Origin: a virus
Strand: one strand, 5' to 3'
IMG/VR virus record: IMGVR_UViG_3300002835_000165
Coordinates: 1 to 64,000 of that record
DNA: 64,000 nt
In this document: one piece after another, positions 15,372 through 32,779 of the stretch
Position numbering within the stretch: the stretch's first letter is position 1
Layout: every line of letters begins with the position of its first letter
Translations under genes and position numbers: made by a program
Notes under the pieces: generated by a model
Seen by the model: the letters and a program-made list of their open reading frames with translations, nothing else
What the model was told of the DNA's origin: nothing
The model's database searches: none

Positions 15372-16436
15372 TTATATTTTTGAACTATGATTGTAACCAG
15401 GTGTCAAACATGCAATTTGTTTTTGATAATAGTCAGGGTCACTCCATGTATAATCATAAGTTGCAGACACTCCATTGGCTTCTATCTTGTATATATCTAA
15501 ATGTTTACTTAACATTGACAAAATTTGTTTGAAATCAGTAGTTCCAAAACTATTTTGTAAATCAACTTGCCCCACTGGATGATATCCATAATTGTATTGT
15601 GAGTCTTCTGGATCAAATCCTTGTTTTACTAGCCACTCTTTAAACTTGTCTATTTCTTTTTTGTGCCAATAATGCGTACCGTAAACAACATCCTGGCCCC
15701 ATTCAATGTCAAATTCTCCAGAATAATAACGTAGATGCGTTATAGCATCACACACAGATTGATCAATGTCTACACCTTGTTCGTCTCTGTAAACCTCATA
15801 AAGAGTTTTGCCGATCTGTGTCCAGTGCAAATATACTTCGCCAAATTTTCTATCGTATCTAGTTTCATCAAAGGTTGTTTTATATTCATTTGGAAAATTA
15901 ATTCGAGCAGCATTCAAAAATGTAGTGATTTGACTAGAGCGTACCCAGTCTGGATTTGTTACTTTTTTACGTTGTGATAATATCAAACTTTCTGCTTCGT
16001 GGCATAGAAGATTTAATTGTCTAATAGCAAATTTTGTAGTGTAATCTGCACGTTTATACCAATCACTTAGTTCCCAAACTGTACCTTGTAAATGTTCAAA
16101 ATGATTGTGCAGTTGATTCATTAGGTCTTGATTAGGATCAAGACCTGTGCGTAATGAGTCAGGAGAAAAAATTTCTTTGATAGTGTATTTGCCTGCAAAA
16201 AAACAATTAATGGTATTTTTAGCCCAGGTCAGTTCTTTGCAAATATAATCTAAATCTCGTGAGCTATCTGGAAATCCTAAAAAACAAAAATTCTTTTCTA
16301 AATATTTGTTTCGTTTTAGTAAATCTTGCAATGCATGATACCAACGCAGACCCATTGGTGAATCGTTGACTACAATAGTGTAGTCAACTGTGTCTGTTTT
16401 ATCTAACGGGTTTCTTAATACTACTTTAACTTTCAA
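15372..16436 (-). CDS. hypothetical protein next to radical SAM genes
   Basis: The product of about 354 residues has no family I recognise. The N-terminal part contains VNDSPMGLRWYHALQDLL and FCFLGFPDSSRDL; the middle is helical; the C-terminal part is rich in tyrosine and aspartate (EDSQYNYGYHPVGQ). I propose the TTG at 16436 as start: the protein then opens MKVKVVLRNPL, GGTGG lies 7 bases upstream, and overlap with the radical SAM gene is 11 bases. The ATG at 16472 would overlap 47 bases. Its position directly after three radical SAM genes suggests that it acts with them, perhaps as substrate carrier or partner. Confidence 0.7.
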   Translation of the reverse strand: MKVKVVLRNPLDKTDTVDYTIVVNDSPMGLRWYHALQDLLKRNKYLEKNFCFLGFPDSSRDLDYICKELTWAKNTINCFFAGKYTIKEIFSPDSLRTGLDPNQDLMNQLHNHFEHLQGTVWELSDWYKRADYTTKFAIRQLNLLCHEAESLILSQRKKVTNPDWVRSSQITTFLNAARINFPNEYKTTFDETRYDRKFGEVYLHWTQIGKTLYEVYRDEQGVDIDQSVCDAITHLRYYSGEFDIEWGQDVVYGTHYWHKKEIDKFKEWLVKQGFDPEDSQYNYGYHPVGQVDLQNSFGTTDFKQILSMLSKHLDIYKIEANGVSATYDYTWSDPDYYQKQIACLTPGYNHSSKI

Positions 16437-17724
16437 TTTGCATCCACCATTTAAGTACATCAGACCGGGCACTGAGTATGTCTGTCATTGTTGTTGATTG
16501 GGTTCTAATCTGTTCTAATTTTAACACACGAGCTTTACCTTGTGCAATAGCAGATTGATATTCTTCGGGCCATTGTTCTTCAAATGTGGGTCTTGTTTTT
16601 AACTGTAGTAGCATACTGCGCATTGTACCAGTTGAATGGTCTACTAGTTCATCTATCCACGGATCCAACAACTTTCTGGGCAATGCCAATGGACTCATCA
16701 CAATATCAGGGCTAAAACTAAACACCACTTTGGTCAGTAGCTCTACTTCTAATTGTTGTGATAATGTTTGCATGTTGTTGACTTCAAACATTCCTGGTAA
16801 AGTAAGAGTAAAATCAAGACGCATGTTCCTACTGTTGTGCTTGTACGCAAGTCCTTTGTTGAAATTTTGCAAGAACTGTTGATAATCAAGTCCTGTTCGT
16901 ATGTATTCTCCTACTACTCCGGTGCCATCAAGACTTGCACATACTTGCCAATCTCGCAAATTGGCCAATATGTCACTGAACAAATTAATCCCGCGATAAT
17001 CAATGCGGCTGAGATTTGTGTTGTATCTAGCGTAGACATTTTTTCCATCACCCAGTTCTATAATGCGTTTCATATACCGCCAATGTTGTTCATACATCAA
17101 CGGTTCGCCACCAACCCAATACACTTCTTCTACACGATGTTCTTCTACTGCTTGACTAAATTCTAACTCAATTTGGCTATCTTGAAATTTACTTATTTTA
17201 TTTCTTACATCAGGAATCATCCAATTATTTTTTGTATTGGTCCAGTCAATCATGTCATGCTGACGTTGTTCGCTTTCCCATGAACTGCTTAACATATCTC
17301 CGCACATGCGACATTTAAAGTTGCAAAGATTACTAAATCTATAATCCCAGCTGACTGGTTTTACTGATGTTGATCCGTCAGGAAGAGTAGCAGACATGAC
17401 ATCTACATATTTGTGGCCAAAGAGTTGATTAAAATAACTGCGATAGACATTTGTATTTAATAGCTTGTTGTTGCATACATCACATTCGGGCAATGTTTCC
17501 CCGGCCATCATACGACGACGAACTGACTTCATGTGTTCACTATTCCAATGTTCTTCTAAAGTACTAGGAGTATAATTACCGGTACCCGGACCAGTATCTA
17601 TATACTGTGTGAAACTTTGTGCATTTTCTCGTGAGGCACAACACATGCGTCGTTCAGTCTGCGGACTGAGATATGTGTGCGTCCACGGTGCCATGCACAA
17701 GGTGTCAGGTTTTGGTGTATTCAA
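16426..17724 (-). CDS. radical SAM protein with N-terminal twitch/SPASM-like domain (copy 1)
   Basis: The 432-residue protein has the radical SAM cluster motif CNFKCRMC at residues 134-141 (CxxxCxxC) and GGEPLM near 206. Before the core lies an extra cysteine set, C10 (CMAPW), C28-C29, C81 and C84, which resembles a SPASM/twitch auxiliary iron-sulphur site but at the N-terminus. Such N-twitch proteins use S-adenosylmethionine to make radicals; substrates are unknown. The start appears to be a TTG overlapping the upstream gene by 20 bases. It groups with the next two genes (CNxKCRxC). They may act as a set or on related substrates. Confidence 0.9.
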   Translation of the reverse strand: MNTPKPDTLCMAPWTHTYLSPQTERRMCCASRENAQSFTQYIDTGPGTGNYTPSTLEEHWNSEHMKSVRRRMMAGETLPECDVCNNKLLNTNVYRSYFNQLFGHKYVDVMSATLPDGSTSVKPVSWDYRFSNLCNFKCRMCGDMLSSSWESEQRQHDMIDWTNTKNNWMIPDVRNKISKFQDSQIELEFSQAVEEHRVEEVYWVGGEPLMYEQHWRYMKRIIELGDGKNVYARYNTNLSRIDYRGINLFSDILANLRDWQVCASLDGTGVVGEYIRTGLDYQQFLQNFNKGLAYKHNSRNMRLDFTLTLPGMFEVNNMQTLSQQLEVELLTKVVFSFSPDIVMSPLALPRKLLDPWIDELVDHSTGTMRSMLLQLKTRPTFEEQWPEEYQSAIAQGKARVLKLEQIRTQSTTMTDILSARSDVLKWWMQIES

Positions 17725-18916
17725 TTAATTCTGCCAATTCTGGAGCCACTGTGGCCAAGTTCTGATTCCGTTTGCGATCTAGATCACGCACTTTCATACG
17801 CAATATAAATCCATCAGAGTCAGCACCACCATTCATAAATTCAATTATGTTGTCAAATTCCCCGCGCCACTTGACAGGAACATCACATGTGCGTAAATGA
17901 TCTGCAATGGCTGCTTTGGCCATCGCGGGCAGTGTAGCAATTGAGAAATACCATGCATCGTGCATCATGTTCCAGTACACAAAATCAAAGGCCTGCTGGT
18001 TGATCCATTGTGCCAGTTGATCAATATAGCGCACATTAAACACATTCACAGTGGCACAGCATTGTAACTGAATGTTAGGATAGTCTTCTCTTAGTAAACG
18101 GAAACGATCAATATTGAACACCACGTCTGACCATACCGCGTTGGTGCGCTGATATTCAAATCTTGCGCCTAGGTCATCAATTGAAAATGCTATTTCCACA
18201 GTTTTAAAATGTTTCCAAATTTCAACGGCTTCTTCAGGGTAGTGTGTGCCATTTGTATTATAATGTATTTCAACTTGATGTGCAATACCACGATCCACGA
18301 TGCCCTGTAGCATTTGGAAATGCTCTCGAATCATAAATGGCTCGCCGCCAGTGAATTCAATATAGCGTATATCATTTAAATGCTGATCAATTTCTCCCCA
18401 AAACTGAGTATTATCTCTAGGCCAAGCACCTGCTTGTAACATTTGATATGCAAAACTGGACTTTTTTTCTTCCGTGGGCAATTGTGCCAGTTCTTCTGTG
18501 GCAAATTGGCTTGAACTCCATGATCCGCATATACGACATTTTAGGTTGCAGATGTTGCCCAGTTTAAGATCCAGGAACATCACGGGCTTGGAATCGGCAG
18601 TCCAGTCTGACGTGATGCCCATGTGTTTCATTCTGTCCAAGGTGTGCATACGCTTGCTAGTGCGTCCTGCACGTTCTTCATTCCAGCACTTGCGGCATGT
18701 CTGTGGTTTTTCACCTGCTAGAAATTGTTCACGCAATGTGCGCATGTGTGTGCTGTTTTGTATGTCAGCAAAGTCAGCAGTCATTAAACTGAACTTTTCA
18801 TTGTTGTTGTCAACAATTTCGTCGTCGGCCAAGCAACAAGGACGCACTGTACCAACAGGACTGGCTTCTAAGCTGATCCAGGGCAATACACAGAATTTAT
18901 CGTGTGGAATATTCAT
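17705..18916 (-). CDS. radical SAM protein with N-terminal twitch/SPASM-like domain (copy 2)
   Basis: The 403-residue protein shows CNLKCRIC at 123-130 and the SAM-binding GGEPFM near 195. The N-terminal cysteines are C9 (CVLPW), C27-C28, C74 and C77, in the same spacing pattern as the neighbours. Between them is a helix with MRTLREQFLAGEKP that matches the SPASM-like layout of the other copies. The ATG overlaps the stop of the upstream copy by 4 bases, so three radical SAM proteins are made from one message. Its identity to copies 1 and 3 is clearly partial, so they are old paralogs, not a recent duplication. Confidence 0.9.
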   Translation of the reverse strand: MNIPHDKFCVLPWISLEASPVGTVRPCCLADDEIVDNNNEKFSLMTADFADIQNSTHMRTLREQFLAGEKPQTCRKCWNEERAGRTSKRMHTLDRMKHMGITSDWTADSKPVMFLDLKLGNICNLKCRICGSWSSSQFATEELAQLPTEEKKSSFAYQMLQAGAWPRDNTQFWGEIDQHLNDIRYIEFTGGEPFMIREHFQMLQGIVDRGIAHQVEIHYNTNGTHYPEEAVEIWKHFKTVEIAFSIDDLGARFEYQRTNAVWSDVVFNIDRFRLLREDYPNIQLQCCATVNVFNVRYIDQLAQWINQQAFDFVYWNMMHDAWYFSIATLPAMAKAAIADHLRTCDVPVKWRGEFDNIIEFMNGGADSDGFILRMKVRDLDRKRNQNLATVAPELAELIEYTKT

Positions 18917-20172
18917 TTCAGAGCCTTCAATTCTGGTATCACGTCCAGAATGTTTTCTTTTCTGATCTCATCTAGTTCATGTGTTTTGCGCCAGAATGTA
19001 TCTATTAGCTGTGTGTTATCTGTGGCATTCATAAAAGTAATTGCACTTTCAAATCCCTGCGTTGCGCGACCCAAGTGATCTTGTGGACGAAGCCATTCAA
19101 TATGTTGTGTCCATTTTGCTTGTAACTGTGCTTTGTAGTCAGACGGTGCAATATCAATCCTGTAGTGTAGCGGATCTTGTAGTATGTTTACATTGAGGTC
19201 TTGTGCGCGGATTAGACCTTGTTCTACCCAGGCACGATGAAACTCTGACAGATGCCATGCATTCATGATGCTTAGTGTAGGCGAGATGTAAAAATCCACA
19301 TCTGGACATACGGCCAGCATGTCTTGACGATTCTGGCGCACCACTGCCCAGTCTGTGCCTTTGCGTATGTATTCTGCACGGGCACCCATGTCATCTAAAC
19401 TTGCGCCCACTGCCACTGATTTAAACTTTTTCCAATATTCAAACACCGAGCGCCCTTTTAAGTCAGTATGTGTGAAGTTTGTGTTGTATATTAAACGCAC
19501 CTCAAACCGGCCTCGCCGTACCAATTCATCTAAGATACGATAATGTTCATCCATCAGCAACGGTTCGCCACCGGCAAAATATATCTGTTCCACATAATCC
19601 AAATGTGGTTCCAGTTGTTCCCACATGTCTGTTTCTGTACGGCCAGCATAGTTAAGAACAGTATTGCGTTCTTTCCACTCTGAGCCAGCAAGTTTTGCTT
19701 GATCTTGATACCATTGACTGCTGAAAATATGCCCACAGCTACGACATTTAAGATTACATAAGTTTGAGAAACGTATGTCCCAATAAGTCATTTCAAATGG
19801 ATTCTCCGCCAGCTTCTTTATGTGATGCCCATGATGCTTGTTTGCACTCTTGCGGCCCGAAAAGAAACCTGATTCTTCCTGTTCATAACAGCGTGTGCAG
19901 GCAGCATGAGGAGTTTCGCTTAACATGTGCGCACGTAACTTCTGCATGGGCTCTCCGCGCCATATTTCTTCTAGCGTATTTGTTCTACAGTTGCCCATAA
20001 CACCTGGCTTCATTTCAGCATGACAGCAAGGATATGCTTCGCCTGTGGGATAAGCATGTAAATGAATCCAAGGATACATGCAGAAGGTTTTTGAGTCCTG
20101 TAAAAGAAACTGTTCGCGAACAGTGAGTTCGGTGGTTCGGACTAGATCTGTTGAATTATATCGGTATGTCAT
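18913..20172 (-). CDS. radical SAM protein with N-terminal twitch/SPASM-like domain (copy 3)
   Basis: The 419-residue protein shows CNLKCRSC at 139-146, with auxiliary cysteines C31 (CMYPW), C49-C50, C92 and C95. A histidine-rich stretch NKHHGHH (111-117) lies between the two parts and is not in the other copies. GGEPLL follows near 216. The first 28 residues are an extra N-terminal arm. The ATG overlaps the TctC-like gene stop by 4 bases. Like the other copies it should sit in the cytoplasm, while its upstream neighbour is predicted to be periplasmic. Confidence 0.9.
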   Translation of the reverse strand: MTYRYNSTDLVRTTELTVREQFLLQDSKTFCMYPWIHLHAYPTGEAYPCCHAEMKPGVMGNCRTNTLEEIWRGEPMQKLRAHMLSETPHAACTRCYEQEESGFFSGRKSANKHHGHHIKKLAENPFEMTYWDIRFSNLCNLKCRSCGHIFSSQWYQDQAKLAGSEWKERNTVLNYAGRTETDMWEQLEPHLDYVEQIYFAGGEPLLMDEHYRILDELVRRGRFEVRLIYNTNFTHTDLKGRSVFEYWKKFKSVAVGASLDDMGARAEYIRKGTDWAVVRQNRQDMLAVCPDVDFYISPTLSIMNAWHLSEFHRAWVEQGLIRAQDLNVNILQDPLHYRIDIAPSDYKAQLQAKWTQHIEWLRPQDHLGRATQGFESAITFMNATDNTQLIDTFWRKTHELDEIRKENILDVIPELKALK

Positions 20173-21044
20173 CGTGATTGATTAATTTCTTTTCTATATT
20201 TTTCTTGCAATCTTTTAACTTGTGCAACAGATTTAGCATAGAATTCTTCTGCCGAGATGTCGGGGATTTTTACCCCAGACAAGTTAAAAATTTCACTGTA
20301 TCCAACAGCTCGTTGTGCATCATTTAACACAGTTGCTATTGCTTGACGCTGTGTGGCCGTCATTGATCTATGTGCCACAATGATGTTGAACACATACGGC
20401 GCATCAATACCTATTTCATGCAGAGTTTGAACACTGGGTGCCTGCGGCAGTCTAGTGGGACAGGATGCCGCAAATGCTTGCAACTTGGCATTTTTGGTTT
20501 TTAGTGTTTGATATGATTCGTAACGATCAATTACCATAAAAATTCCATTGTTGCCGGCCATGTTTACCAAGGCATCGTTGTTGCTTTTGAACACTATATA
20601 TCTAACGCTAAAGCCATATTTCTCGCCTAGTGCCAGGGCTGTTAAATGTGTGGCATTACCAATACCCACTCCGCCCACAGTCATTTCTTTTTGATCCGTA
20701 ATGCTACCATTTGTGATCACTGTCCAGCAAGCATCGCCCAGAGCATGAACAGGCACATAGTCCGACTCTAAGATCTTACCTGCGGCTACATTTTCTACAA
20801 AGGCCGGAGCAATAACGGCCAGGCTGGTTGCATCCAATGCTTGTAGAGCAATCATTTGGTTGCCGCCGGGCTTGAATTCCAGCACAAAAGAATAAGTGTG
20901 TTGCGATTTGTTGGCCTGATTAATGATTTTAAACATAGCAGGAGTGGCCGAATGCGACGGAGCATATGGAGAATATATCTTGACTACATCTGCTAATGCC
21001 GCAGTATTTAACAGTAGTACAAATAATGTACCTAGTATTTTCAC
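20169..21044 (-). CDS. TctC/Bug-type periplasmic solute-binding protein
   Basis: The product of about 291 residues starts with a signal peptide: MKILGTLFVLLLNTAALA then D, with ALA as cleavage site. The mature part follows the tripartite tricarboxylate transporter receptor (TctC/Bug) pattern: an opening strand VKIYSPYAP, FKPGGNQM at the carboxylate-binding loop, TVGGVGIGNATHL at the second loop, and a late block TLHEIGIDAP...VAHRSMTATQR. In bacteria these proteins bind carboxylates and deliver them to TctAB or to sensors. I chose the GTG at 21044 because it overlaps the previous stop (GTGA) and makes a proper signal peptide; a TTG at 21059 adds five residues. No TctA or TctB gene is present. 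Confidence 0.85.
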   Translation of the reverse strand: MKILGTLFVLLLNTAALADVVKIYSPYAPSHSATPAMFKIINQANKSQHTYSFVLEFKPGGNQMIALQALDATSLAVIAPAFVENVAAGKILESDYVPVHALGDACWTVITNGSITDQKEMTVGGVGIGNATHLTALALGEKYGFSVRYIVFKSNNDALVNMAGNNGIFMVIDRYESYQTLKTKNAKLQAFAASCPTRLPQAPSVQTLHEIGIDAPYVFNIIVAHRSMTATQRQAIATVLNDAQRAVGYSEIFNLSGVKIPDISAEEFYAKSVAQVKRLQEKYRKEINQSR

Positions 21045-22369
21045 AATGAGTCGTACCAATCTTTTAATTCGGGGAACGTGGAACCGAAGTCTTTTTCACG
21101 ACGCTGATCGTATTGTGTGTAAAATTGTTTAAAATCTTGTTGAAGCACAGTTAATTTGGCCGATTCGGCATGCGGAGTTTTAACTACATCAAGATAGTCA
21201 ATTAATCGTTGTATATGATTATGCTCGTGTTCATGTAAAAACTCTCCGTCATTTTGATACAACCACTGTTCAAGACAGGTTTTATATTGTTCACGCATGT
21301 TGTTTGGCAACACCAATGGCGATTGAAAGCTGGGAAAACGTAATATATTTAAAGTAAAACTAATTGCATCTCTTCCATATTCAATTTTCCAATTGTGTAT
21401 GCAAGAAAGCAAACTATCCAAGCTATCTAAACACAGCGCATTGATTGTGCACATGACATGAATACTGCGGAATTTTCCAGAATCAAGTAACCGTTCTACA
21501 TTGTTGACCCAATCATCCCACACAAGTCCATCACGAATATATTCAGACTGTAGGCTTGTTGACTCGTTACTGGTATATAAATCAACTTCGACTCCATCAA
21601 TGGCCTCAAGCAAACGATCTATGTCAACATCAGTGCCTAGATTGCTGTTGATGGCCAGACGTGTTTTGCTACGTCCTTTGTTGGCTTTAAACCATTCAAT
21701 CAGTTTCCATGTCTCTGCACTCATCAACGGTTCACCGCCGGTTATTCTGAGCTCTTGAAGAGTTTTGTGAAGATCAGTTTCCCACCACTTAAAAAATGCT
21801 TCAACGTATGGATTGATTTCACCAAAACGGTATAGTTGACTGCCGTCGTGAGTGTGAGTAAAGTGATTGCGGCCATCGGACACCAAATTGGTATAGGCGC
21901 CGTGTTTTTTAATGTCATTGACCCATGTGCTACTGAAAGCAGGGTTGCAATAACTACAAGCAAATTGGCAAGTACGATCAAACGCAATTTCAAGCGTTTT
22001 GAGATCAAAGTCTTCCCTAGCAGGTGTTCTGAATGCACGGTTGAGTTCCTCTATAGGGTAAATTTTACTTTTATACACACGGTCGCTAATATTATCTCTG
22101 CCAATGTCTTCTATCTTCCAGCAGTATTCACACCCGCTGGGACGTTCACCTCGTTGCATCTGCTCACGTTCCATTTTTTTCTTCTGCGTGTTGTGCAATG
22201 CACTAGGATTGCGTTTAATGTCGTCAACATCTATAGCATGTGGCAGTGGGTGGTGACAACTGGTGGTCTGTCCTGAACCCAACCATATAGTGGCATTGTA
22301 CCATTTGGCCGCACAGAAGCTGGCACTTTTGGTGTCTAGTACTTGTTGTTTAAATTCTATGTCATTCAT
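21041..22369 (-). CDS. radical SAM protein, CxxACSYC subgroup (copy 4)
   Basis: The 442-residue protein has the cluster motif CQFACSYC at 134-141 and ITGGEPLM near 220. The N-terminal cysteines are C19 (CAAKW), C38, C80 and C83. A shared block NPSALHN...KKMEREQM...ERPSGCEYCW links it to the gene at 27966-29378 and sets both apart from copies 1-3. The histidine pair SCHHPLPH is also kept in outline (CYHPPLH). It is probably an SAM-radical enzyme with an auxiliary cluster; the substrate is unknown. It overlaps the TctC-like gene by 4 bases and the upstream gene by 8. Confidence 0.9.
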   Translation of the reverse strand: MNDIEFKQQVLDTKSASFCAAKWYNATIWLGSGQTTSCHHPLPHAIDVDDIKRNPSALHNTQKKKMEREQMQRGERPSGCEYCWKIEDIGRDNISDRVYKSKIYPIEELNRAFRTPAREDFDLKTLEIAFDRTCQFACSYCNPAFSSTWVNDIKKHGAYTNLVSDGRNHFTHTHDGSQLYRFGEINPYVEAFFKWWETDLHKTLQELRITGGEPLMSAETWKLIEWFKANKGRSKTRLAINSNLGTDVDIDRLLEAIDGVEVDLYTSNESTSLQSEYIRDGLVWDDWVNNVERLLDSGKFRSIHVMCTINALCLDSLDSLLSCIHNWKIEYGRDAISFTLNILRFPSFQSPLVLPNNMREQYKTCLEQWLYQNDGEFLHEHEHNHIQRLIDYLDVVKTPHAESAKLTVLQQDFKQFYTQYDQRREKDFGSTFPELKDWYDSL

Positions 22370-23009
22370 TTAATAATTTATCCGTTGCTGTTTTCCATGA
22401 TTGCCAAAGTTTAACAACTAATGCCAAATCTAGATCTAGATCTAGTTTTCGAGACAGTTGATGTATTACATCAACATAGCTGTCTTTTTCTAACATGTGT
22501 TCCCAGTTAATAATGTTTGCTTGATAATCAGTCTGTAATTTATCAAAAGTCTCTAATTCGGTCTGTTCAAGTTGATACACACTATCTAAATCTAGTCTCT
22601 TTATCTTAGCCAGATATTTAATTAGTTCAACACTACTGGGTTGATATTTGATAAAAATTAATTGTTCCCACGAATTTACATTATCCCACAAGAGTTTTCT
22701 GTCTGACTCAAATTTAAACATTGCTGGATGGAAATGATCAATCAACCAAAGATTACTATTTTCGTAGTTAACAAAATCCTGTAGACCAGTATGGTACCAA
22801 ATTTTTAATGCGTTTTCTGTACTGGGCCAGTCCGCTGAATTCCAATTATTATACAATAAAAATCTCTGTTGAGCGGATAATTTTAAGTAGGGTTGGTGCT
22901 GACTATATTCCGCCGGCAAATATGCTACAGTTTTTTCACTCAGTGACAAAGTCCTAGATAGAAGATTTCCACCAGATCCTTGAACATATACAATAGCTGC
23001 TTTTAACAA
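22362..23009 (-). CDS. hypothetical protein with glycine-loop N-terminus
   Basis: The 215-residue protein opens MLKAAIVYVQGSGGNLLSRT, a strand-loop-helix that resembles a sulfotransferase or kinase phosphate loop but lacks the GKS/T of a true Walker A. The rest is helical with many aromatics. A sulfotransferase fold is possible but not shown. The start is probably TTG at 23009, with AAGGG 5 bases upstream. The 3' part carries three copies of ATCTAG in a row (22428-22445) that encode alternating leucine and aspartate. It overlaps the radical SAM gene by 8 bases. Confidence 0.65.
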   Translation of the reverse strand: MLKAAIVYVQGSGGNLLSRTLSLSEKTVAYLPAEYSQHQPYLKLSAQQRFLLYNNWNSADWPSTENALKIWYHTGLQDFVNYENSNLWLIDHFHPAMFKFESDRKLLWDNVNSWEQLIFIKYQPSSVELIKYLAKIKRLDLDSVYQLEQTELETFDKLQTDYQANIINWEHMLEKDSYVDVIHQLSRKLDLDLDLALVVKLWQSWKTATDKLLNE

Positions 23010-23017
23010 TTATGCCC

Positions 23018-23083
23018 TTAATAAAACTCTTTTCTAACTTTTACTTGCATTTCTGCAAGGTGTTGTTGATTGTACTCACACAC
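23018..23083 (-). CDS. possible 21-codon mini-gene or read-through tail
   Basis: From GTG at 23083 a frame encodes a short charged peptide containing EYNQQHLAEMQVKVRKEF. It is in the same frame as the 28-codon gene just upstream, separated from it by a TAA (23096-23098) and four sense codons. The stop TAA lies directly before the AAGGG of the next gene. No Shine-Dalgarno precedes the GTG. It may be the broken second half of one 50-codon gene. Confidence 0.3.
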   Translation of the reverse strand: MCEYNQQHLAEMQVKVRKEFY

Positions 23084-23095
23084 ATTATAACATTC

Positions 23096-23182
23096 TTAGA
23101 GAAATTTTGCAAGATCTTGTTGACATAAATCTTCGACTACTGCGGCAATTTGTTCTAATATTAATTTATAGTCATTGATCAT
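23096..23182 (-). CDS. 28-residue mini-protein
   Basis: The frame begins MINDYKLILEQIAAVVEDL and ends QQDLAKFL. Its ATG overlaps the stop of the SGNH-like gene 23179-23904 as ATGA, the commonest junction in this genome, which supports translation. The product is an acidic amphipathic helix. There is no known family. It could be an assembly or regulatory peptide, or the first half of a gene split by the TAA at 23096-23098. Confidence 0.5.
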   Translation of the reverse strand: MINDYKLILEQIAAVVEDLCQQDLAKFL

Positions 23183-23904
23183 ATCATTTTTATTATTCGT
23201 TGCGCTAATTGTTTAAAGTATTCACTTGAAGGATGACAGTTGTCTGGAAACAACAAACTTTTAACTGTTAACTCCTGTATTATTTTTGCTTTATCTAATT
23301 GATCTATATTATTAATAATAAACTCTTTTTGATCAACACCATAATGATCTAATATTCTTTTAAATTTATCCCATGATCTAATAAAAAAAGTATTTTTTGG
23401 TGGAATAAAATTTAACTCTAGTAGTTCTGCCAGCCAACAGTGTATTATATGTTGTGCAAAAGAAAATTGGGCAATTACGGGGTTAACTGGACTCTGCCCT
23501 CCAATCACAATAAACGGTATATTGTATTCATCTGCAATTGTTTGTGCATATTTGTAATTCTCAAAATCTAGATAATCCAATCCGACATCGAAATTGCTTA
23601 TATCAAAATTTGGAAAATGTCGTTGACCTTCTTCAGGATCGTTTATAAGAATTTCTTCTACGTCTCTTATTGACTCTGTCTGAAACCAAATTATATAATC
23701 ATAGTCTGAATTTTCTTTGAGGGTCCAGTATGCATGTCTTAATTGGCCAAAATTACTGCCGCCACCGGCGGATATATTTGTAACTGTGTGCCCAAGTTGA
23801 GTCAAGTGATAATCTAATCCAGTGTTGGGTATTGATTCAAACTTACCACTTTTTATGGTCCATTCTCCCATGCCCCAACTACTACCCAATATAAAAAATT
23901 TCAT
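23179..23904 (-). CDS. SGNH hydrolase-like protein (copy 4)
   Basis: The 241-residue protein opens MKFFILGSSWGMGEWT and is clearly related to the protein at 4423-5202 (ILGDSWGCGEWT). The aspartate of the GDS motif is replaced by serine, so the motif is G-S-S. SAGGGSNFGQ and the C-terminal DNCHPSSEYF give the other conserved blocks, with the aspartate and histidine in place. The changed block I may mean lowered or altered activity. Only 3 bases separate it from the upstream TEKT-family gene. No signal peptide is present. Confidence 0.62.
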   Translation of the reverse strand: MKFFILGSSWGMGEWTIKSGKFESIPNTGLDYHLTQLGHTVTNISAGGGSNFGQLRHAYWTLKENSDYDYIIWFQTESIRDVEEILINDPEEGQRHFPNFDISNFDVGLDYLDFENYKYAQTIADEYNIPFIVIGGQSPVNPVIAQFSFAQHIIHCWLAELLELNFIPPKNTFFIRSWDKFKRILDHYGVDQKEFIINNIDQLDKAKIIQELTVKSLLFPDNCHPSSEYFKQLAQRIIKMI

Positions 23905-23907
23905 AGG

Positions 23908-24966
23908 CTATTCAAATAGATGTTCCGTTTTGTATTTTTGCTCTTGGGCATACTCAAAAAATCTATTTCTATTATGTACTAAATCGGGCAGCATATCAGA
24001 GTATATTTTAATTATTTCTTTTTTGTCTAGTGTTGTAAGGTATCGTATAACAGCAATGATAGAATCATGAACTTCATACTCTGGTATATTTTCTAATTCT
24101 ACACCGTCAAAATAATGATTGAAGGTTCGAAAACCTTGACGACGTAGCCAATCATATATGGTAGTTTGTCCATTTATTATAAATGGTCGCATTCCAATGA
24201 TCGGCTTTAGTGTTTTTTCTGTAGGAAACACTGTATCCCATGGGAAGAATTCTGTCTCACTAACAACATTTAAAAAATGCTGTTGCCATATGGTCAAGTC
24301 TCCGAGACTACAAAAATCAGCAGGCACACTGCCAAATGTTTTGACCATTGGAAACCTGTTGTTGTTAGTAGGATCGGTGCTGTCATTGAGTGTATAATAT
24401 TTGTCGGTGTCCAATCCTTGGGAAACGTCATAGTGTAATTCTGGTTTTCCTAAAGAGATTATTCCGTATTTTTCTAAGTTATGTTCGTGCAATTTTTCTA
24501 CCAACTTGATCCTGAATGGTTTAGGTTTTCTGTTGTAGTTTACATATAAAAACTTTAAATCTTTTAGTTCTAATTCATCTTGTGTGTATTCTGGAAATTC
24601 TTCTTGGCATACTATCGAATGAGTATTAAATGAACAGCGGCCATCAAATGCAACACCTATATAAAAAATTTTTTCTAAACACAATGCCTGCTCTACCTCT
24701 TTAATTTGATCAGGCAGTATTGTGATAGGATCGATAATACCAGTCCAAAATAAATTATCAAATTTTTTGTTGTTAGCTATTAGTTTTTGAATCAACGACC
24801 ATGATTGATTATCAAACTGAGGCCCTATCCAAGTGGTGTTTATTATTAAATTGTTAGAACTTGGAAAGTTATTGTTTATTTGTTTTTTTACAGAATTAAA
24901 AATACGGTGTTCCTGTAACCCAAACGGCACAGTTTTGGCAAAGAATTCTCCTATAATTGTTATCAT
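23908..24966 (-). CDS. glycosyltransferase-like protein, TEKT family (copy 2)
   Basis: The 352-residue protein carries the family block FPTEKTLKPIIGMRPFIING followed by LRRQGFRTFNHYFDG near the C-terminus. The same lysine, proline and GF(R/Q)TF positions occur in the proteins at 10792-11883 and 29375-30343. The N-terminal half has nothing I can identify. The ATG at 24966 overlaps the Fcl stop by 4 bases. A longer frame from 25065 would lie inside the fcl gene. Its place right after the GDP-6-deoxysugar genes suggests that it uses their product, possibly as a fucosyl-type transferase. That is inference. Confidence 0.6.
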   Translation of the reverse strand: MITIIGEFFAKTVPFGLQEHRIFNSVKKQINNNFPSSNNLIINTTWIGPQFDNQSWSLIQKLIANNKKFDNLFWTGIIDPITILPDQIKEVEQALCLEKIFYIGVAFDGRCSFNTHSIVCQEEFPEYTQDELELKDLKFLYVNYNRKPKPFRIKLVEKLHEHNLEKYGIISLGKPELHYDVSQGLDTDKYYTLNDSTDPTNNNRFPMVKTFGSVPADFCSLGDLTIWQQHFLNVVSETEFFPWDTVFPTEKTLKPIIGMRPFIINGQTTIYDWLRRQGFRTFNHYFDGVELENIPEYEVHDSIIAVIRYLTTLDKKEIIKIYSDMLPDLVHNRNRFFEYAQEQKYKTEHLFE

Positions 24967-25913
24967 AGTGTTTCTAAATATGCCTTGTATGTGTGTTGCA
25001 ATCCGTCTGTTAATGACACAGAAGGCTGCCAGCCTAGCGAAAGTAGTTTGCTGTTGTTGGTGCATTTACGCATAGTTCCGTCAGGCTTGGTTGTATCAAA
25101 TTCAATGTTGCCAGTGAATCCAACCACTGATGCCACCGTCTGTGCCATTTCTTTGATTGTAATATCAACTCCTTGACTGAGATTAATAAAGTTTCTCATT
25201 GGTTCGGTAACAGAATCCCATTGTTGTTTTTCAAGATTCATAACGGTTATACAACCATTGGCCATGTCTTCTGAATATAAAAATTCACGACGTGGCGTGC
25301 CAGTGCCCCAAATTTTAACTGTTGGACTATTTTGAATTTTTGCATTGTGAAAATTTTGTATCATTCCAGCGGTCACATGCCCATTAACAGGATCATAATT
25401 ATCCCCAGGGCCATACACATTACACGGCAACACTGTTCTGTAATCTCTATTGTATTGTCTATTATAGCTTTCGCACATCTTTAATGCAGCAATTTTGGCA
25501 ACAGCATAGGGTTCGTTGGTTGATTCGAGATATCCTGAGAGTAACGCTGTTTCTTTTATCGGTTGCTCAGTTACTCGTGGGTAGATACAAGTGGATCCAA
25601 TCATTAAAAATTTTTGTATATTGTTTACATGCGCGGCATTGATAACATTGGTTTGCATTATTAAATTTTTATAGATAAATTCAGCCGGGTAATTATTGTT
25701 GGCCATTACTCCGCCAACCTTGGCAGCGGCAAAATAAACTTGATCAATTGGTGTTGATTTAAAAAATTTATTCACCGCATGTTGATCAGTCAAATCTAAT
25801 TCGCTGTGGGTTCTAGTAATAATATCCACTGGATGAACTCCATGCATTAACAACATCTTCACAATGGTAGATCCAACCAATCCACGATGTCCAGCAACAT
25901 AAATTTTAGTCAT
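24963..25913 (-). CDS. fcl: GDP-L-fucose synthase (GDP-4-keto-6-deoxymannose epimerase/reductase)
   Basis: The 316-residue protein has the NADPH motif AGHRGLVGS (7-15), AAAKVGGV (62-69) and NYPAEFIY (74-81). The catalytic residues known from E. coli GMER occur at the same numbers: S107, C109, Y136, K140 and H179. C109 and H179 do the two epimerisations and Y136/K140 the reduction, so a bifunctional enzyme giving GDP-L-fucose, or a heptose analogue, is likely. The gene lies in a run gmd-like, kinase, fcl with overlaps of 4 and 8 bases. It acts in the cytoplasm. Confidence 0.95.
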   Translation of the reverse strand: MTKIYVAGHRGLVGSTIVKMLLMHGVHPVDIITRTHSELDLTDQHAVNKFFKSTPIDQVYFAAAKVGGVMANNNYPAEFIYKNLIMQTNVINAAHVNNIQKFLMIGSTCIYPRVTEQPIKETALLSGYLESTNEPYAVAKIAALKMCESYNRQYNRDYRTVLPCNVYGPGDNYDPVNGHVTAGMIQNFHNAKIQNSPTVKIWGTGTPRREFLYSEDMANGCITVMNLEKQQWDSVTEPMRNFINLSQGVDITIKEMAQTVASVVGFTGNIEFDTTKPDGTMRKCTNNSKLLSLGWQPSVSLTDGLQHTYKAYLETL

Positions 25914-26907
25914 AGTGTTTCTCTCTGTCTTGATAGTCGCAGTAAATTAACTGGCTTCCTAGATATTCAAAATCGACAGGAACTTCTTTTAGATTTAATG
26001 CATCTGTTACTTGTTTTTGCTGCTCCGGAGGAGTTAGAAATAAAACAAATCCGCCACCGCCGGCACCCAATAATTTGGCTCCAACTGCACCATTGGCCAG
26101 TCCAGATTGTATAATGGCATCAATTTTATCATTTGTTATTGATTTTTCTATAGATTTTTTAATCTGCCATTCTTCATTTAATAACTTTGAAAAGGAATTT
26201 ATATCATTTGCAAACAACATGTTCAGAGCCTCAGATGTCAATGACATCATGTCTTTTAATAAAATTGTTTTATTTTTAATATTTGATATTGTTTTTTCTG
26301 CAATGTCGGCTGAGTTTCTTAGATCTTCTGTAAAAAATATTTGAACCCAAGATTCCAAAGAATCCAATGTGGATTTATTAATAGGTAAAGGATGACACAT
26401 AAAGTCAGACTGCCCACCAAATTCTATTTTGTTAAATCCACCAAAACTGGCTGCCACTTGATCCTGCGATCCTACACTTTCTTTTAATATATTTTGTTCT
26501 AAATGTATTGCCCCTAATGCTAGTTCTCTTTTGGTTCTTTGTTGGTTGCGTAAAGCAGCCAATCCGTGCAGTAAAGATACTGTAAAGCTGGAACTAGATC
26601 CGACTCCGGATCTATTCGGAAGATCGCCGTGATGTGTGATATCAACGCCTTCGGTAATTTTCATATATTTTATTGCTTCGCGTATAACAGGAATTTGTAT
26701 TTGATCCACCGAATTGACTTCTTCTTTTTCATAGTATCGAATACGATATTTGTAATCAAAGATTTCTGGCAGTTTTCTAATTACTAGAAAAGAATATTTG
26801 TTTATAGTAGTTGACAGCACTATTCCATTATTCTCTTGGTACCAGGCTGGATAATCAGTGCCGCCGCCAAAGAAAGAAATTCTATAAGGTGTTCTAACAA
26901 TAATCAT
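25906..26907 (-). CDS. GHMP-family sugar kinase (heptose-7-phosphate kinase-like)
   Basis: The 333-residue protein opens IVRTPYRISFFGGGTDYPAW, the GHMP substrate loop seen in D-glycero-D-manno-heptose 7-phosphate kinases. PNRSGVGSSSSFTV (97-110) is the ATP loop, and GAKLLGAGGGGFVLF near 275 is motif 3. Relatives phosphorylate the anomeric position of heptose 7-phosphate or fucose. It lies between the GMD- and Fcl-like genes with overlaps of 4 and 8 bases. Such a trio exists in bacterial GDP-6-deoxyheptose pathways. If the sugar were plain fucose made from GDP-mannose, no kinase would be needed, so the kinase hints at a heptose or a salvage route. Confidence 0.88.
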   Translation of the reverse strand: MIIVRTPYRISFFGGGTDYPAWYQENNGIVLSTTINKYSFLVIRKLPEIFDYKYRIRYYEKEEVNSVDQIQIPVIREAIKYMKITEGVDITHHGDLPNRSGVGSSSSFTVSLLHGLAALRNQQRTKRELALGAIHLEQNILKESVGSQDQVAASFGGFNKIEFGGQSDFMCHPLPINKSTLDSLESWVQIFFTEDLRNSADIAEKTISNIKNKTILLKDMMSLTSEALNMLFANDINSFSKLLNEEWQIKKSIEKSITNDKIDAIIQSGLANGAVGAKLLGAGGGGFVLFLTPPEQQKQVTDALNLKEVPVDFEYLGSQLIYCDYQDREKHYD

Positions 26908-27917
26908 CTTACTAAAAACTTTCCTTTATGTGTCATTACTTGTTCTCTCCAGTAATCAAGCAGATCACGCATGGTTTGTTCAAATGATATCTCAGGTTGC
27001 CAGCCAGTGTGTAGGGTGAATTTATTTGTGTTTGGCACCTGCAGGTCTGCGTCAATTGGCCGTATTCTGTCAGGATCTACTTCAATTTTTATCTTGTCTT
27101 TTGCAGTTGACATGTTGATTAATGTATGTAGAATGTCTTCCACTGTGCAGGAATATGTTCCACCTATATTATAGTATTCTCCTGGAATAGGATTTATTGT
27201 AACCAACATATAATAAGCTCTTACTGCATCTCTAACATCAGCAACTGTTCTGAGGCTTTTTAAATTTCCAACCTTTACAACTGGATCAATATATCCTGCT
27301 TCAATCAAAGCAATTTGTTTAGCAAAAGATGATTCGGCAAATACATCACCACGCCGTGGACCGGTGTGCGTAAACATTCGTGTGGTCATTATATTCATCT
27401 TATATGCTTCTGCGTAAAATCTACCCAATAGGTCTGTGCCTGTTTTAGATATAGCATAAGGACTGGCTGGATGAAACAAACATTCTTCATCAATTGGTAG
27501 TTTATCTTTACTGACTCTACCAAATACTTCAGACGATGCACACACATGCACAATACAATCAGGTTTGTTTTTTTTAATTGCCTCTAATAATCGTGCTGTG
27601 CCCAAAACATTGGTATTGAGCGTATCTACCGGAGAAGTGAAACTGGTCAGTGGAAAACTTTGTGCTGCTAGGTGGAATACATAATCTGGCATAGCAGTCT
27701 TGATAGCCAAATCCAAAGAGTTATCATCATTCAGATCGCCATAGATAAGTTTTACACGACATTTGTTGTTGATCGGGTCGATTAAATTCTTTATGTTTTC
27801 TAACGGACTTCTCCATCTGGTTAGACCAATGATGTTCCAATTGGTATTTTCATACAAAAAATCCGCCAGGTGCGATCCTACCATGCCTGTGATACCAGTG
27901 ATGAGAGCAGTTTTCAT
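26904..27917 (-). CDS. gmd: GDP-mannose 4,6-dehydratase-like SDR
   Basis: The 337-residue protein has TGITGMVGSH (NADP motif, 7-16), FHLAAQSF (81-88), the serine/glutamate pair in ASSEVFG (127-133), and Y154/K158 in SPYAISK. The stretch FTHTGPRRGDVFAES is typical of GDP-mannose dehydratases and their 6-deoxyheptose relatives. The enzyme removes water to give a 4-keto-6-deoxy GDP sugar, the substrate of Fcl. Mannose and manno-heptose cannot be told apart by eye. The ATG overlaps the stop of the 21-codon gene upstream (ATGA). Confidence 0.9.
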   Translation of the reverse strand: MKTALITGITGMVGSHLADFLYENTNWNIIGLTRWRSPLENIKNLIDPINNKCRVKLIYGDLNDDNSLDLAIKTAMPDYVFHLAAQSFPLTSFTSPVDTLNTNVLGTARLLEAIKKNKPDCIVHVCASSEVFGRVSKDKLPIDEECLFHPASPYAISKTGTDLLGRFYAEAYKMNIMTTRMFTHTGPRRGDVFAESSFAKQIALIEAGYIDPVVKVGNLKSLRTVADVRDAVRAYYMLVTINPIPGEYYNIGGTYSCTVEDILHTLINMSTAKDKIKIEVDPDRIRPIDADLQVPNTNKFTLHTGWQPEISFEQTMRDLLDYWREQVMTHKGKFLVR

Positions 27918-27979
27918 TTATGTTTCCGTACATCTTCTACTATGCTACCGCTGTTAAATTTAATTTTAATTTTTGGCAT
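27914..27979 (-). CDS. 21-residue mini-protein between radical SAM and gmd genes
   Basis: The frame encodes MPKIKIKFNSGSIVEDVRKH plus a final lysine. Its ATG lies inside the last codons of the radical SAM gene 27966-29378 (14-base overlap). Its stop overlaps the gmd ATG as ATGA. Both junctions fit translational coupling. The peptide looks like a short beta hairpin with a basic end. It may only pass ribosomes on to gmd, or be a small partner or peptide substrate of the radical SAM enzyme; the last idea is speculative. Confidence 0.6.
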   Translation of the reverse strand: MPKIKIKFNSGSIVEDVRKHK

Positions 27980-29378
27980 AATATTGGCACTCCTTCCACC
28001 ATGACGACATTTCAGGAAATATAGTTAAAAAATCTGTGCCATGTCTGCGATCAGCTTCACTGAAAAAACGATAGAAGTCTGCTTTGTTACGTTGCAAGTA
28101 TGCCGTATCTAATTGCTGCCCATCCCTCATCCAAGCAATATCTCTGTCTAATCGTTGCAGTTCGTAGTCTTTAAATCCGTGAAATGGGTCATCTTCAGTT
28201 TCAATTTGACCTAGCATGCATCCCCACAGATGTTCCAGTTGATCTGCATAGCTTTCTGGCAACAATTGCAAACTCTGCCATGTGGGTTGTCTTAGTAACG
28301 GGGTATCAAACCATACTCGTTGATATGTTTTACTGTAGATTTTTCTTAGGCCAAGAATACCAGCCATGAGTTTAGAAAAGCCTGTAACACTTAGATTATT
28401 CATAGTTATAATAAATGTTATGCTATTGCGCCCTGGTATTTCTGTTAAAAATTGATTTACACGATCCCATAAGAGATCAAAATCTAATCCATGCCGAATA
28501 TATTCTGCTTGCTCTGCCCACGAGTCAAGGCTAACGTACTGCATAAAGTGCTCAATTTTTTCGCCTTCGCATAATTGTTTAACTGATTCTTTATACTTTT
28601 GCCATAGACTTTCCTCCACTGAAAAGTTACTGGTAACATTCAAATGCAGATCTGATTTGGGATTTGCCAACACATAGTCAAACACACGATATGTATTTTT
28701 GTCCATTAGAGGCTCACCGCCTGTCATACGGAAATGTCTAAGTTCTGGATACAGTGTAGGCCACCAACGCCAGAACGCTTCTACATACGGATTGTGTTCT
28801 TTTACAGGTATAGGACGATTGCGCCCTGTAAAATGCTTAGGATCATTATGAGTAGTACTAGTAGGATATCCACCAAATCTGTTAACTTCGGACTGCCACG
28901 ATGAGCTAAATTGTGGGCTACAATAACTGCATGCCAGATTACAAGCATGATTAAAATTGACTTCAACATAGCTTGGCACAACATCTTCGTCTCCTGAAGA
29001 GTGTTTGATCTTTTCAAAGTCAACTGCGGCCCAGGGCTCCCCAGATCTGTAATGACGATCACTGAGTTTGTCATTATCTTCCATGTTCCAACAATAACTG
29101 CATTCGGTAGGCCGCTCTTGTTTTAGCATGATCTTGCGTTGTGCTTTTTTGTGCTCGGTGTTATGCAATGCTGATGGATTGGATGCGATTGCTGTTGGAT
29201 CCATTGAATGTAATGGTGGATGGTAGCAACTATTATTAAGTCCAGTTGTGAGATGCAAACTGACCTGTTTCCATTTGGCCAAGCATAGTGCAGGTCCTAG
29301 CTCTTCTTTCATTTGTTCTGCAGAACTTAGAAATTTTGATTTAGAGTCTGTTACAACTTTGTTGCCTTTGTTTGTCAT
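27966..29378 (-). CDS. radical SAM protein, CxxACSYC subgroup (copy 5)
   Basis: The 470-residue protein has CNLACSYC at 146-153 and MTGGEPLM near 229. The N-terminal cysteines are C32 (CLAKW), C51, C93 and C96. The block NPSALHN...KAQRKIML...ERPTECSYCW matches the gene at 21041-22369, and HNPYVEAFWRWW matches NPYVEAFFKWW there. The two are clear paralogs. A segment TTHNDPKHFTGRN between core parts aligns with a histidine-containing loop (NHFTHTHDG) in copy 4 and may bind substrate. It overlaps the upstream gene by 4 bases. Confidence 0.9.
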   Translation of the reverse strand: MTNKGNKVVTDSKSKFLSSAEQMKEELGPALCLAKWKQVSLHLTTGLNNSCYHPPLHSMDPTAIASNPSALHNTEHKKAQRKIMLKQERPTECSYCWNMEDNDKLSDRHYRSGEPWAAVDFEKIKHSSGDEDVVPSYVEVNFNHACNLACSYCSPQFSSSWQSEVNRFGGYPTSTTHNDPKHFTGRNRPIPVKEHNPYVEAFWRWWPTLYPELRHFRMTGGEPLMDKNTYRVFDYVLANPKSDLHLNVTSNFSVEESLWQKYKESVKQLCEGEKIEHFMQYVSLDSWAEQAEYIRHGLDFDLLWDRVNQFLTEIPGRNSITFIITMNNLSVTGFSKLMAGILGLRKIYSKTYQRVWFDTPLLRQPTWQSLQLLPESYADQLEHLWGCMLGQIETEDDPFHGFKDYELQRLDRDIAWMRDGQQLDTAYLQRNKADFYRFFSEADRRHGTDFLTIFPEMSSWWKECQYYAKN

Positions 29379-30343
29379 ATAGCAGTAATATTTGTTTGGT
29401 AAGTTTGATCGTGTAATAAATTATAATTGCAATCAAGGATATCTTGCATATCCCAATACATGCGTTCTAGTTCACTAGCAGGTTTTTTGGCAATTTCATC
29501 AATCAAATTCAAAATTCTGACATATCGATCTCGTCCTTCGTATCCGTCATATTCTTCAGACCAAAAATCACTAAAGGTCCTGAATCCCATCTGTTTAAGA
29601 TACAAAAGATAATTACAAGAAGCAAATACTATAAATGGTTTTTTCAGCCACATAGGTCGTACAGTTTTTTCTGTTACATAAAACGTATTTCCAAGTGAAT
29701 GACTTTCACTGACTACGTCGATTAATATGTCTTGATAGATTGTTTTAAGTATAGTGTCCACATTTTCGTCAACTATAAATTTTTTAATAAGAGTAAGATC
29801 TTCTTTGCCGTTGGACCAAATTGGCATATCTGGTATCATGCTAGTTGCATTTTTTACGGATTGTATATCATATGACAATAGTTTATCAAGTTCAAAATGA
29901 TAAATTGTCTCTGTGCTATTAACAAAAGAAGAAAAATGCACCAATGAAGCTGCCGGATGAGTACAGTACAAGTGAGATGCTAATCCTAGTCTGCTGGCGG
30001 TAGGTCTATGATAAAATGCTAAAAAGACTTTTTTTTGATTCCAAGAATGATACTCAGCATCAACGTTCCATTTTTGTTTGAGCCACGATGTTCTAAAATC
30101 AAATTGTATAATATTGTACTTGCTATGTTTTTCTAAACAATTTTCTGTGTAAATATCAACTTGTTCAAAACTGAAATGTTCTAATAATTTATAAATTCCC
30201 AGAGTTTCAAGACAGATGGCTTCTGGATTTATAACTAAGGAAATATGCTTGTGTTGATTTTTAACCAAGTAACCAATTAGTTCTTGAAAGTTCCAAAGTT
30301 TATCATTGGTTCCGTGAATTATAAATGTTTGATTTTTTTCCAT
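29375..30343 (-). CDS. glycosyltransferase-like protein, TEKT family (copy 3)
   Basis: The 322-residue protein has LGNTFYVTEKTVRPMWLKKP near residue 225 followed by GFRTFSDFWSEEYDG. This is the family block shared with 10792-11883 and 23908-24966. The order of an acidic residue, FYVTEK and a proline recalls GT10 fucosyltransferases, whose VTEK motif binds GDP-fucose. A GDP-fucose-type donor is made by genes 24963-27917. The N-terminal half has no motif I know. It overlaps the SDR gene upstream by 25 bases and the radical SAM gene by 4. Confidence 0.58.
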   Translation of the reverse strand: MEKNQTFIIHGTNDKLWNFQELIGYLVKNQHKHISLVINPEAICLETLGIYKLLEHFSFEQVDIYTENCLEKHSKYNIIQFDFRTSWLKQKWNVDAEYHSWNQKKVFLAFYHRPTASRLGLASHLYCTHPAASLVHFSSFVNSTETIYHFELDKLLSYDIQSVKNATSMIPDMPIWSNGKEDLTLIKKFIVDENVDTILKTIYQDILIDVVSESHSLGNTFYVTEKTVRPMWLKKPFIVFASCNYLLYLKQMGFRTFSDFWSEEYDGYEGRDRYVRILNLIDEIAKKPASELERMYWDMQDILDCNYNLLHDQTYQTNITAI

Positions 30344-32502: not shown

Positions 32503-32779
32503 CTTTGGGTTTCAATCCGTTGCTGTGTTTGTCATTAGGGGTGTCAACATCTTGAAACAACCGTTTTTCTTGTTGGGTTAATTCTTTAAGAGTTTTACGA
32601 GGATTACTGCACATTACACATTTTGGATTGCCGCAGTTCATTGCGTGATGTTTGACAAACTTGTGAGGTTCTTCAACAGGTATTCCAAATTCTTTAGCAA
32701 TCTTTGTTTGTTTTTTTATAGCGTTTTCATCTTTTTGTAGTCGTTTGGAATGTTTAATTTTGTCTTGTTCTTTACTCAT
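32495..32779 (-). CDS. small protein with CxxxxCxxC zinc-like motif
   Basis: The 94-residue protein has a lysine-rich N-terminal helix, then HKFVKHHAMNCGNPKCVMCS and NPRK, then LTQQEKRLFQDVD. Three cysteines in CGNPKCVMC with histidines nearby could bind zinc. From memory, the HAMNCGNPxCxxCxNPR pattern is widespread in phages and some bacteria, without a defined role. Nucleic-acid binding is plausible. It overlaps both neighbours by 8 bases. Confidence 0.75.
   Translation of the reverse strand: MSKEQDKIKHSKRLQKDENAIKKQTKIAKEFGIPVEEPHKFVKHHAMNCGNPKCVMCSNPRKTLKELTQQEKRLFQDVDTPNDKHSNGLKPKDE

Follow-up and report, generated by a model that had tools for sequence, protein, structure and literature searches.

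The viral DNA analysed here, a stretch of 64,000 nucleotides (the window; positions 1 to 64,000 of IMG/VR record IMGVR_UViG_3300002835_000165, 65,519 bases in full), was found to encode five radical S-adenosylmethionine (SAM) proteins with an N-terminal twitch domain, denoted as A to E. The five genes are held together, behind the tail genes, in a block that also contains a conserved phage protein, denoted as F, and an O-carbamoyltransferase. In our assessment there is an even chance that A to E constitute the enzymatic core of a conserved glycan-tailoring pathway located behind the tail genes. The record itself is probably a fragment, as its relatives reach 374 kb.

All five genes are on the minus strand. 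Genes C (18913-20172), D (17705-18916), and E (16426-17724) are consecutive and carry the core motifs CNLKCRSC, CNLKCRIC, and CNFKCRMC, respectively, whereas B (21041-22369, CQFACSYC) and A (27966-29378, CNLACSYC) share the pattern CxxACSYC. The open reading frames (ORFs) and the two motif subgroups, the first of the form CNxKCRxC, are as described in an earlier reading of these letters alone (the sequence-only reading), and the observation is more than chance. The proteins were scored with the curated NCBIfam model NF033640 (N_Twi_rSAM, cut-off 170 bits), and A, B, C, D, and E gave 295, 298, 399, 333, and 291 bits, with most of the profile covered. The other NCBIfam families listed for A to E scored below 30 bits and under their own cut-offs (for one protein, among the best 25 of 31 matches), and prokaryotic viperin (NF038283) was rejected at 18 to 29 bits versus a cut-off of 180. 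The sequence identity to C is 32% for D, 26% for E, 21% for B, and 20% for A. In each protein the CxxxCxxC core is preceded by a four-cysteine twitch set of the form C-x17/18-C...C-x2-C. The N-terminal segment of approximately 70 residues, represented by a profile of 38 sequences, aligns at profile positions 10-83 with the C-terminal twitch domain of BtrN (4m7t, E value 2e-9); at the level of sequence, the auxiliary cluster assigned to the N-terminus was thus placed correctly.

Relatives were collected from IMG/VR in two sets. The first comprised the best 80 of 205 stretches matching gene C, and the second, made since the first had been selected by gene C, comprised the best 80 of at least 553 stretches matching gene F; the two sets have 2 contigs in common when the names are compared by eye. 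Presence was counted only over loci with enough flank. In the C-anchored set, D was present in 79/79 loci, E in 70/70, F in 62/62, the carbamoyltransferase in 57/57, and a further gene, c5, in 74/77. In all 76 loci where the sequence upstream of C extends for 5.5 kb or more, both A and B were found. In the F-anchored set (thresholds of 150 bits for A and B, 250 for C, and 200 for D and E) the corresponding counts were 74/74 for E, 72/73 for D, 67/68 for C, 63/64 for B, and 64/66 for the carbamoyltransferase; A was left uncounted because the flanks were too short. In the usual order of the C-anchored loci, a pair of virion-like proteins is followed by a handful of ORFs that are small or of the DxD type and by a region of variable content, after which come A, c5, B, C, D, E, F, and the carbamoyltransferase; the genes beyond are on the opposite strand. 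The window lacks c5, and a GDP-sugar cassette occupies the stretch between A and B. The main ORFs in the window from 63 kb down to 13.8 kb (32 by our choice) are on one strand, and 20 of the 31 neighboring pairs overlap. Co-occurrence in the two 80-locus sets demonstrates a conserved gene set rather than scattered single genes, and the unknown gene downstream (F) belongs to it, as the sequence-only reading had suggested that it may.

The seven cluster cysteines are invariant in each of the five orthologues from the C-anchored loci: 75/75 for A, 75/75 for B, 81/81 for C, 80/80 for D, and 73/73 for E. For these counts the lengths were limited to 0.7-1.4 of the median, and A and B were taken only from loci with exactly two A/B genes. 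In the F-anchored set, the core and the N-terminal cysteines are kept in 309 of 309 complete copies (at least 350 residues and clear of contig ends), so that the claimed retention of every cluster cysteine holds. Among the C-anchored sequences, each of A to E has one or more invariant cysteines of its own beyond the seven, as well as orthologue-specific invariant residues. The median ratio of nonsynonymous to synonymous substitution rates (dN/dS) was determined to be 0.073-0.122 for the five genes, indicative of purifying selection; 22-53 of 600 sampled pairs per gene were used, and the rest fell outside of 0.1 < dS < 1.5. In the trees each of A to E forms one clade across the phages. Proteins A and B fall into one group with genes from phage cassettes, C clusters with proteins from Bacteroidota (loci L106-L109), D is located among Bdellovibrionota and phage rows, and the place of E is unsure; the 59-row tree omitted 52 of 111 rows, the longest branches among them. 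A single expansion within the phage group was rejected by constraining A to E to one clade (approximately unbiased test, p = 1.2e-50). Since this single clade is rejected, the five-gene set was assembled and not simply multiplied. The term paralogous is therefore appropriate for the superfamily and misleading within the phage. The suggestion that there are five distinct roles is consistent with the orthologue-specific residues, the dN/dS medians, and the rejected clade.

The gene for F (15372-16472, minus strand; up to 366 codons, the unknown of 354 residues in the earlier reading) directly follows E. No match to F was obtained at E ≤ 0.1 in Pfam, NCBIfam, or PHROG, and no PDB fold match at E ≤ 0.001; the BFVD matches at that level are only to uncharacterized phage proteins. 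The resemblance of F to a cyclophilin-like barrel is weak, and the best Z score of 7.6 (root-mean-square deviation of 3.6 over 142 residues; cyclophilins at approximately 7) is below a trustworthy level. The closest viral structure is A0A6J5T9P3 from an uncultured phage, with a template modelling score of 0.74 by query and, at 768 residues, about twice the length of F. The carbamoyltransferase (13764-15263, minus strand) is a core member of the NodU type, identified by PF16861 (E value 4e-48) and PF02543 (E value 2e-32). The Carbam_trans_N and Carbam_trans_C domains are both above cut-off, at 113.7 and 163.5 bits, and the score versus the NodU equivalog is 138.7 bits, with a cut-off of 1000, so that the protein is a member of the family and not NodU itself.

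The association with a carbamoyltransferase extends to bacteria. Of 16 bacterial genomes with N-twitch genes, 8 have a carbamoyltransferase gene no more than 7 kb from one of them, versus 0.30 expected if placement is assumed to be uniform and with genomes that are not all independent. The family is found in 12 of these 16 genomes and in 3 of 14 control genomes, all of which have matches to NF033640 at E ≤ 0.001 and none above the cut-off; at E ≤ 0.001 radical SAM proteins of other kinds are detected as well. The 16 genomes represent 19 of the 21 loci from the bacterial search, with L110/L120, L117/L122, and L119/L126 paired by record name and with L121 (phage) and L125 (partial) omitted. For the carbamoyltransferase, 17 of 21 rows were used; two short pieces above the cut-off and two below it were dropped. 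In locus L108 the order is N-twitch gene, carbamoyltransferase, GDSL protein, glycosyltransferase, epimerase, UDPG/GDP-mannose dehydrogenase, and GT2-like protein, with small or unassigned ORFs between them. By its gene content, L108 is an example of the carbamoyltransferase link inside a clear polysaccharide locus.

Several other relatives deserve mention. Contig L227 (MH319727.1, Marine virus AG-345-D19, from a single cell) combines an amidinotransferase, a carbamoyltransferase that is 47% identical to that of the window, and an N-twitch match on 8 kb. The sorted cell may name the host of this relative, and no host for AG-345-D19 was found in the literature. Locus L121:1-11204 (NZDU01000006.1), titled Candidatus Pacearchaeota archaeon, matches D, E, the carbamoyltransferase, and the protein at 9186-10790 described below, and is probably a phage fragment misbinned as archaeal. 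Genome G056 (L123, Bdellovibrionales) contains 37 matches to NF033640 at E ≤ 0.001, and its contig C275, with nine above the cut-off plus a carbamoyltransferase, may derive from a large prophage or belong to a pathway of the bacterium itself. In a Rhodocyclales genome, an N-twitch sequence is located within an open frame of 1637 residues (L124:6809-11719); if this is a fusion protein, as is possible, the function of a partner might be learned from it.

In the record of the window only A to E match NF033640, and the number of five given by the sequence-only reading is correct there. As the full number for these phages it is a lower bound. Records with gene C have at least five matches at E ≤ 0.001 in 41 of 41 tested (the records of 41 of the 80 loci), with up to 17. 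The eight longer relatives that were listed in full have 6-10 places above the cut-off and 10-17 at E ≤ 0.001, and all 14 records of at least 280 kb (6 C-anchored and 8 F-anchored) have 9-15 places at E ≤ 0.001. Counts at this level are of places rather than genes (in genome G002, two open frames yield two places each), and most of the weaker matches are to shorter proteins that lack a CxxC before the core. Iron-sulfur carriers of the A type are encoded in 8 of 11 records in one set, 9 of 18 in another, and, among the 14 records that are 280 kb or longer, in 12. These carriers could also be taken to mean that the enzymes act as auxiliary metabolic genes that raise host fitness or aid host iron-sulfur metabolism, as proposed earlier for Campylobacter phages (PMC2853527) and T4-like ocean phages (PMC5332604). 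The carriers can equally be read as a supply for the radical enzymes, and five diverged genes in fixed order with a carbamoyltransferase and F are unlike loose auxiliary genes. We regard an auxiliary metabolic role as very improbable.

Deposited phages were searched for C, B, F, the carbamoyltransferase, the amidinotransferase, and the baseplate protein. Among 50,697 deposited phage records, relatives of C at E ≤ 1e-10 were found only in the Vibrio phages K566 and K567, and no relatives of B or F were found. In K566, which has six matches to NF033640, the N-twitch genes are interleaved with two family-8 glycosyltransferases, and PagP (by annotation) and LpxC are encoded within a few kilobases of them. 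Relatives of the carbamoyltransferase occur in 134 deposited phage records, of which 98 are from Synechococcus phages. The PagP and LpxC genes near the N-twitch genes and the frequency of the carbamoyltransferase in cyanophages would be compatible with a product that is made by the same sugar chemistry and placed on the lipopolysaccharide or capsule of the host, where it blocks superinfection, rather than on the virion. Virion assembly is suited at least equally by the location of the block behind the tail genes, with which it is conserved, and remodelling of the host surface seems to us rather unlikely.

The model of protein C predicted by AlphaFold from a 43-sequence alignment has a mean local confidence (pLDDT) of 91.7 and adopts the radical SAM fold. 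The best structural matches are a tie among BlsE, DesII, anSME, and SkfB, with Z scores of 12.7-12.8. BtrN, BlsE, and DesII are radical SAM enzymes that act on sugars or cyclitols. The BtrN-like twitch, taken together with BlsE and DesII in the tie, suggests that A to E may be sugar- or cyclitol-acting enzymes. The presence of anSME and SkfB in the same tie is in keeping with a different function, in which A to E act on residues of the neighboring tail proteins or of some small conserved protein, and F serves as a partner or recognition protein. For such a maturation of proteins or peptides one can also cite the matches to PF13186 (SPASM) at the N-terminus of E, D, and C, since SPASM/twitch enzymes act on peptides, and the position of the genes directly behind the tail genes in the same run. 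No RRE-type domain or precursor peptide was listed in the general Pfam and NCBIfam scans of A to E, which did not include a dedicated search for either one. Moreover, epimerases/dehydratases, a sugar kinase, a DegT aminotransferase, an FkbM methyltransferase, and AMP-ligases are among the products of exchangeable genes that lie within the core set or next to it, and the bacterial relatives are often beside a carbamoyltransferase, in one case within a polysaccharide locus. On balance, we consider peptide or protein maturation to be an improbable function for A to E.

We favor the tailoring of a glycan in view of the conserved block and its retained cluster cysteines, the sugar-nucleotide and other tailoring genes inserted into it (a relative of tryptophan halogenase included), the carbamoyltransferase link in bacteria and in AG-345-D19, the glycosyltransferases of K566, the resemblance to BtrN, BlsE, and DesII, and the A-type carriers of the large records. 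The tailoring would proceed as follows. Each of A to E would use SAM and a [4Fe-4S] cluster to generate the 5'-deoxyadenosyl radical, which would remove a hydrogen atom from a sugar or from a residue linked to one, with an electron passing to or from the N-terminal twitch cluster. The five fixed reactions at C-H bonds could be oxidations, epimerizations, deoxygenations, or rearrangements. Together with one carbamoylation they would act on a common sugar or oligosaccharide, and F would provide a further step or act as a partner. The exchangeable cassettes around the fixed core would change the sugar or add groups, and the phage A-type carriers would help with the iron-sulfur supply. The product would most likely decorate the tail of the phage itself and, as the second choice, the surface of the infected cell. 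We infer that A to E are active enzymes with a sugar as substrate, that they are expressed late, and that the virion is their target. A broader proposal is made tentatively and with some doubt, namely, that a clade of uncultivated jumbo myophages builds an unusual carbamoylated glycan on its own tail with five fixed N-twitch enzymes, the new family F, phage iron-sulfur carriers, and exchangeable cassettes, as a radical counterpart of the diversification of host glycan loci that is partly shared with Bdellovibrionota and Bacteroidota.

A number of observations weigh against the tailoring of a glycan by A to E. The predicted fold of C does not choose sugar over peptide, as the tie includes the peptide-acting anSME and SkfB. 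The carbamoyltransferase is absent from 2 of 66 F-anchored loci, and 8 of the 16 bacterial genomes are without the link (4 without any match); these genomes were selected via one peptide pattern, and some are mutually related. No A-type carrier was detected in 3 of 11 records of one set and 9 of 18 of the other, and K566 and two records that are 280 kb or longer are among those without one. Three conserved ORFs with DxD-type motifs, all on the minus strand, are perhaps glycosyltransferases, a guess from motifs seen by eye (31239-32171, 32772-33515, and 33499-34299; present in 73/75, 69/75, and 59/67 C-anchored loci, respectively), and no significant match to them was obtained in Pfam, NCBIfam, or by sequence in the PDB. 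Finally, TATAAATA, the T4 late promoter word, was found 0 times in the window versus 4.7 expected, which leaves late expression to position alone; the lineage of the window may possess a late signal other than TATAAATA.

For the three DxD-type ORFs, profile comparison with the glycosyltransferase-like proteins of the Campylobacter phage CP220 and of K566 gave no homology, and that at 32772-33515 belongs to a PHROG family of unknown function (E value 8e-8). Searches of the PDB by sequence gave no useful match for these ORFs, F, or c5. The protein encoded at 9186-10790 (minus strand, 534 residues) is conserved in 62 of 64 F-anchored loci and has no significant family match in the libraries scanned; a weak profile cross-match relates it to 31239-32171. 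The adjacent gene at 10792-11883 (plus strand; 47 of 64 F-anchored loci) codes for a member of a phage superfamily which, by cross-matching profiles, also includes c5, c13, c16, c19, 23908-25065, and 29375-30343. At 12051-13079 (plus strand) an accessory amidinotransferase-like protein is encoded that is 23% identical (E value 2e-12) to the 'possible glycine amidinotransferase' of CP220 and has no match in Pfam or NCBIfam. It was rejected as a core member despite its recurrence in CP220, being present in 41 of 53 C-anchored but 11 of 64 F-anchored loci.

Between A and B, a variable sugar-nucleotide cassette (24963-27917, minus strand) codes for proteins like GDP-mannose dehydratase and GDP-fucose synthase and for a GHMP sugar kinase, best described as HddA-like. 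These have Pfam matches, and their NCBIfam scores are all under the equivalog cut-offs. Among the C-anchored loci, the cassette is confined, at 35% identity or higher, to the window and L007. The contig of L007 encodes a C protein identical to that of the window and, likewise between B and C, a TctC-like solute-binding protein (20169-21059 in the window, minus strand; PF03401, 40 bits). This is the periplasmic protein that the sequence-only reading had offered as a partner. That proposal does not hold, since the gene is found between B and C only in these two sequences; it occurs in 11 of 80 loci, in 10 of them elsewhere, and is a strain-peculiar insert rather than a core gene. Some neighbors look SGNH-like by eye, and the libraries gave no clear SGNH match for those from phages. 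A member of the tryptophan-halogenase family (PF04820, 306 bits) is encoded at L011:18475-19719, with relatives in L012, L014, and L015, as an exchangeable gene in a glycan-like region.

The gene run that ends with the carbamoyltransferase is headed by a virion or tail-fiber-like protein (35675-36955, minus strand) with matches to PHROG virion structural, scaffolding, and tail-fiber families. The neighboring gene at 34679-35662 (minus strand) has no significant match and is assigned a virion role by position only. Upstream of these is a single ORF of 4773 residues (37778-52099), a 740-residue part of which has no significant PHROG match. The baseplate wedge protein (52099-55512) is approximately 34% identical to those of phages 121Q, PBECO4, and GAP32.

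A large number of radical SAM genes in a phage is not new. The Campylobacter phages CP220 and CPt10 were described by Timms et al. in 2010. Of the genes annotated as radical SAM between positions 60001 and 109000 of CP220, 3 of 6 give N-twitch matches, with scores of 29-34 bits and no N-terminal CxxC of the kind found in A to E; the mix of functions in CP220 resembles that of the window, with radical SAM genes of other subfamilies. As in the window, five radical SAM genes are clustered with an amidinotransferase, which is homologous to that of the window. CP220 also has genes annotated with nucleotide-sugar-transferase domains, and just ahead of the cluster are a PAAR gene and a gene for what may be a baseplate lysozyme. 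The CP220/CPt10 report gives 11-12 radical SAM genes per genome, called 'highly unusual', and its authors infer an exchange of entire cassettes, whereas A to E are fixed (PMC2853527). According to a 2017 paper, the T4-like ocean genome TARA_ERS488813_N000010 resembles the larger relatives in combining many radical SAM genes, 12 in number, with an A-type carrier in one genome (PMC5332604). For the giant Aeromonas phage 332-Vera (PQ474292), a 2025 paper reports eight radical SAM genes, again called 'highly unusual', amid baseplate, portal, and tail-fiber genes of a structural cluster, in a member of the Chimallinviridae (phiKZ-like), which is another virion lineage (PMC12390700). No description of the module, of F, or of a function was found in the literature searched, which included few subscription journals, and no publication on an 'N-terminal twitch' with radical SAM was found.

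What is new is the defined conserved module and its link to a carbamoyltransferase. What had been a curiosity thereby becomes a pathway that can be defined, whose genes have names, whose class of product can be predicted, and which has relatives in bacteria for further work. Should the product indeed be placed on the tail, virion maturation would involve radical enzymes. Among characterized enzymes, BtrN shares the twitch sequence with A to E and differs in having it at the C-terminus, and BlsE and DesII resemble the model of C in a tie with peptide-acting enzymes. The NF033640 family has the same N-terminal cysteine set and CxxxCxxC core as A to E, and its model description names no reaction; the arrangement of five fixed orthologues in one phage block, with further copies elsewhere in the genome, is a specific one.

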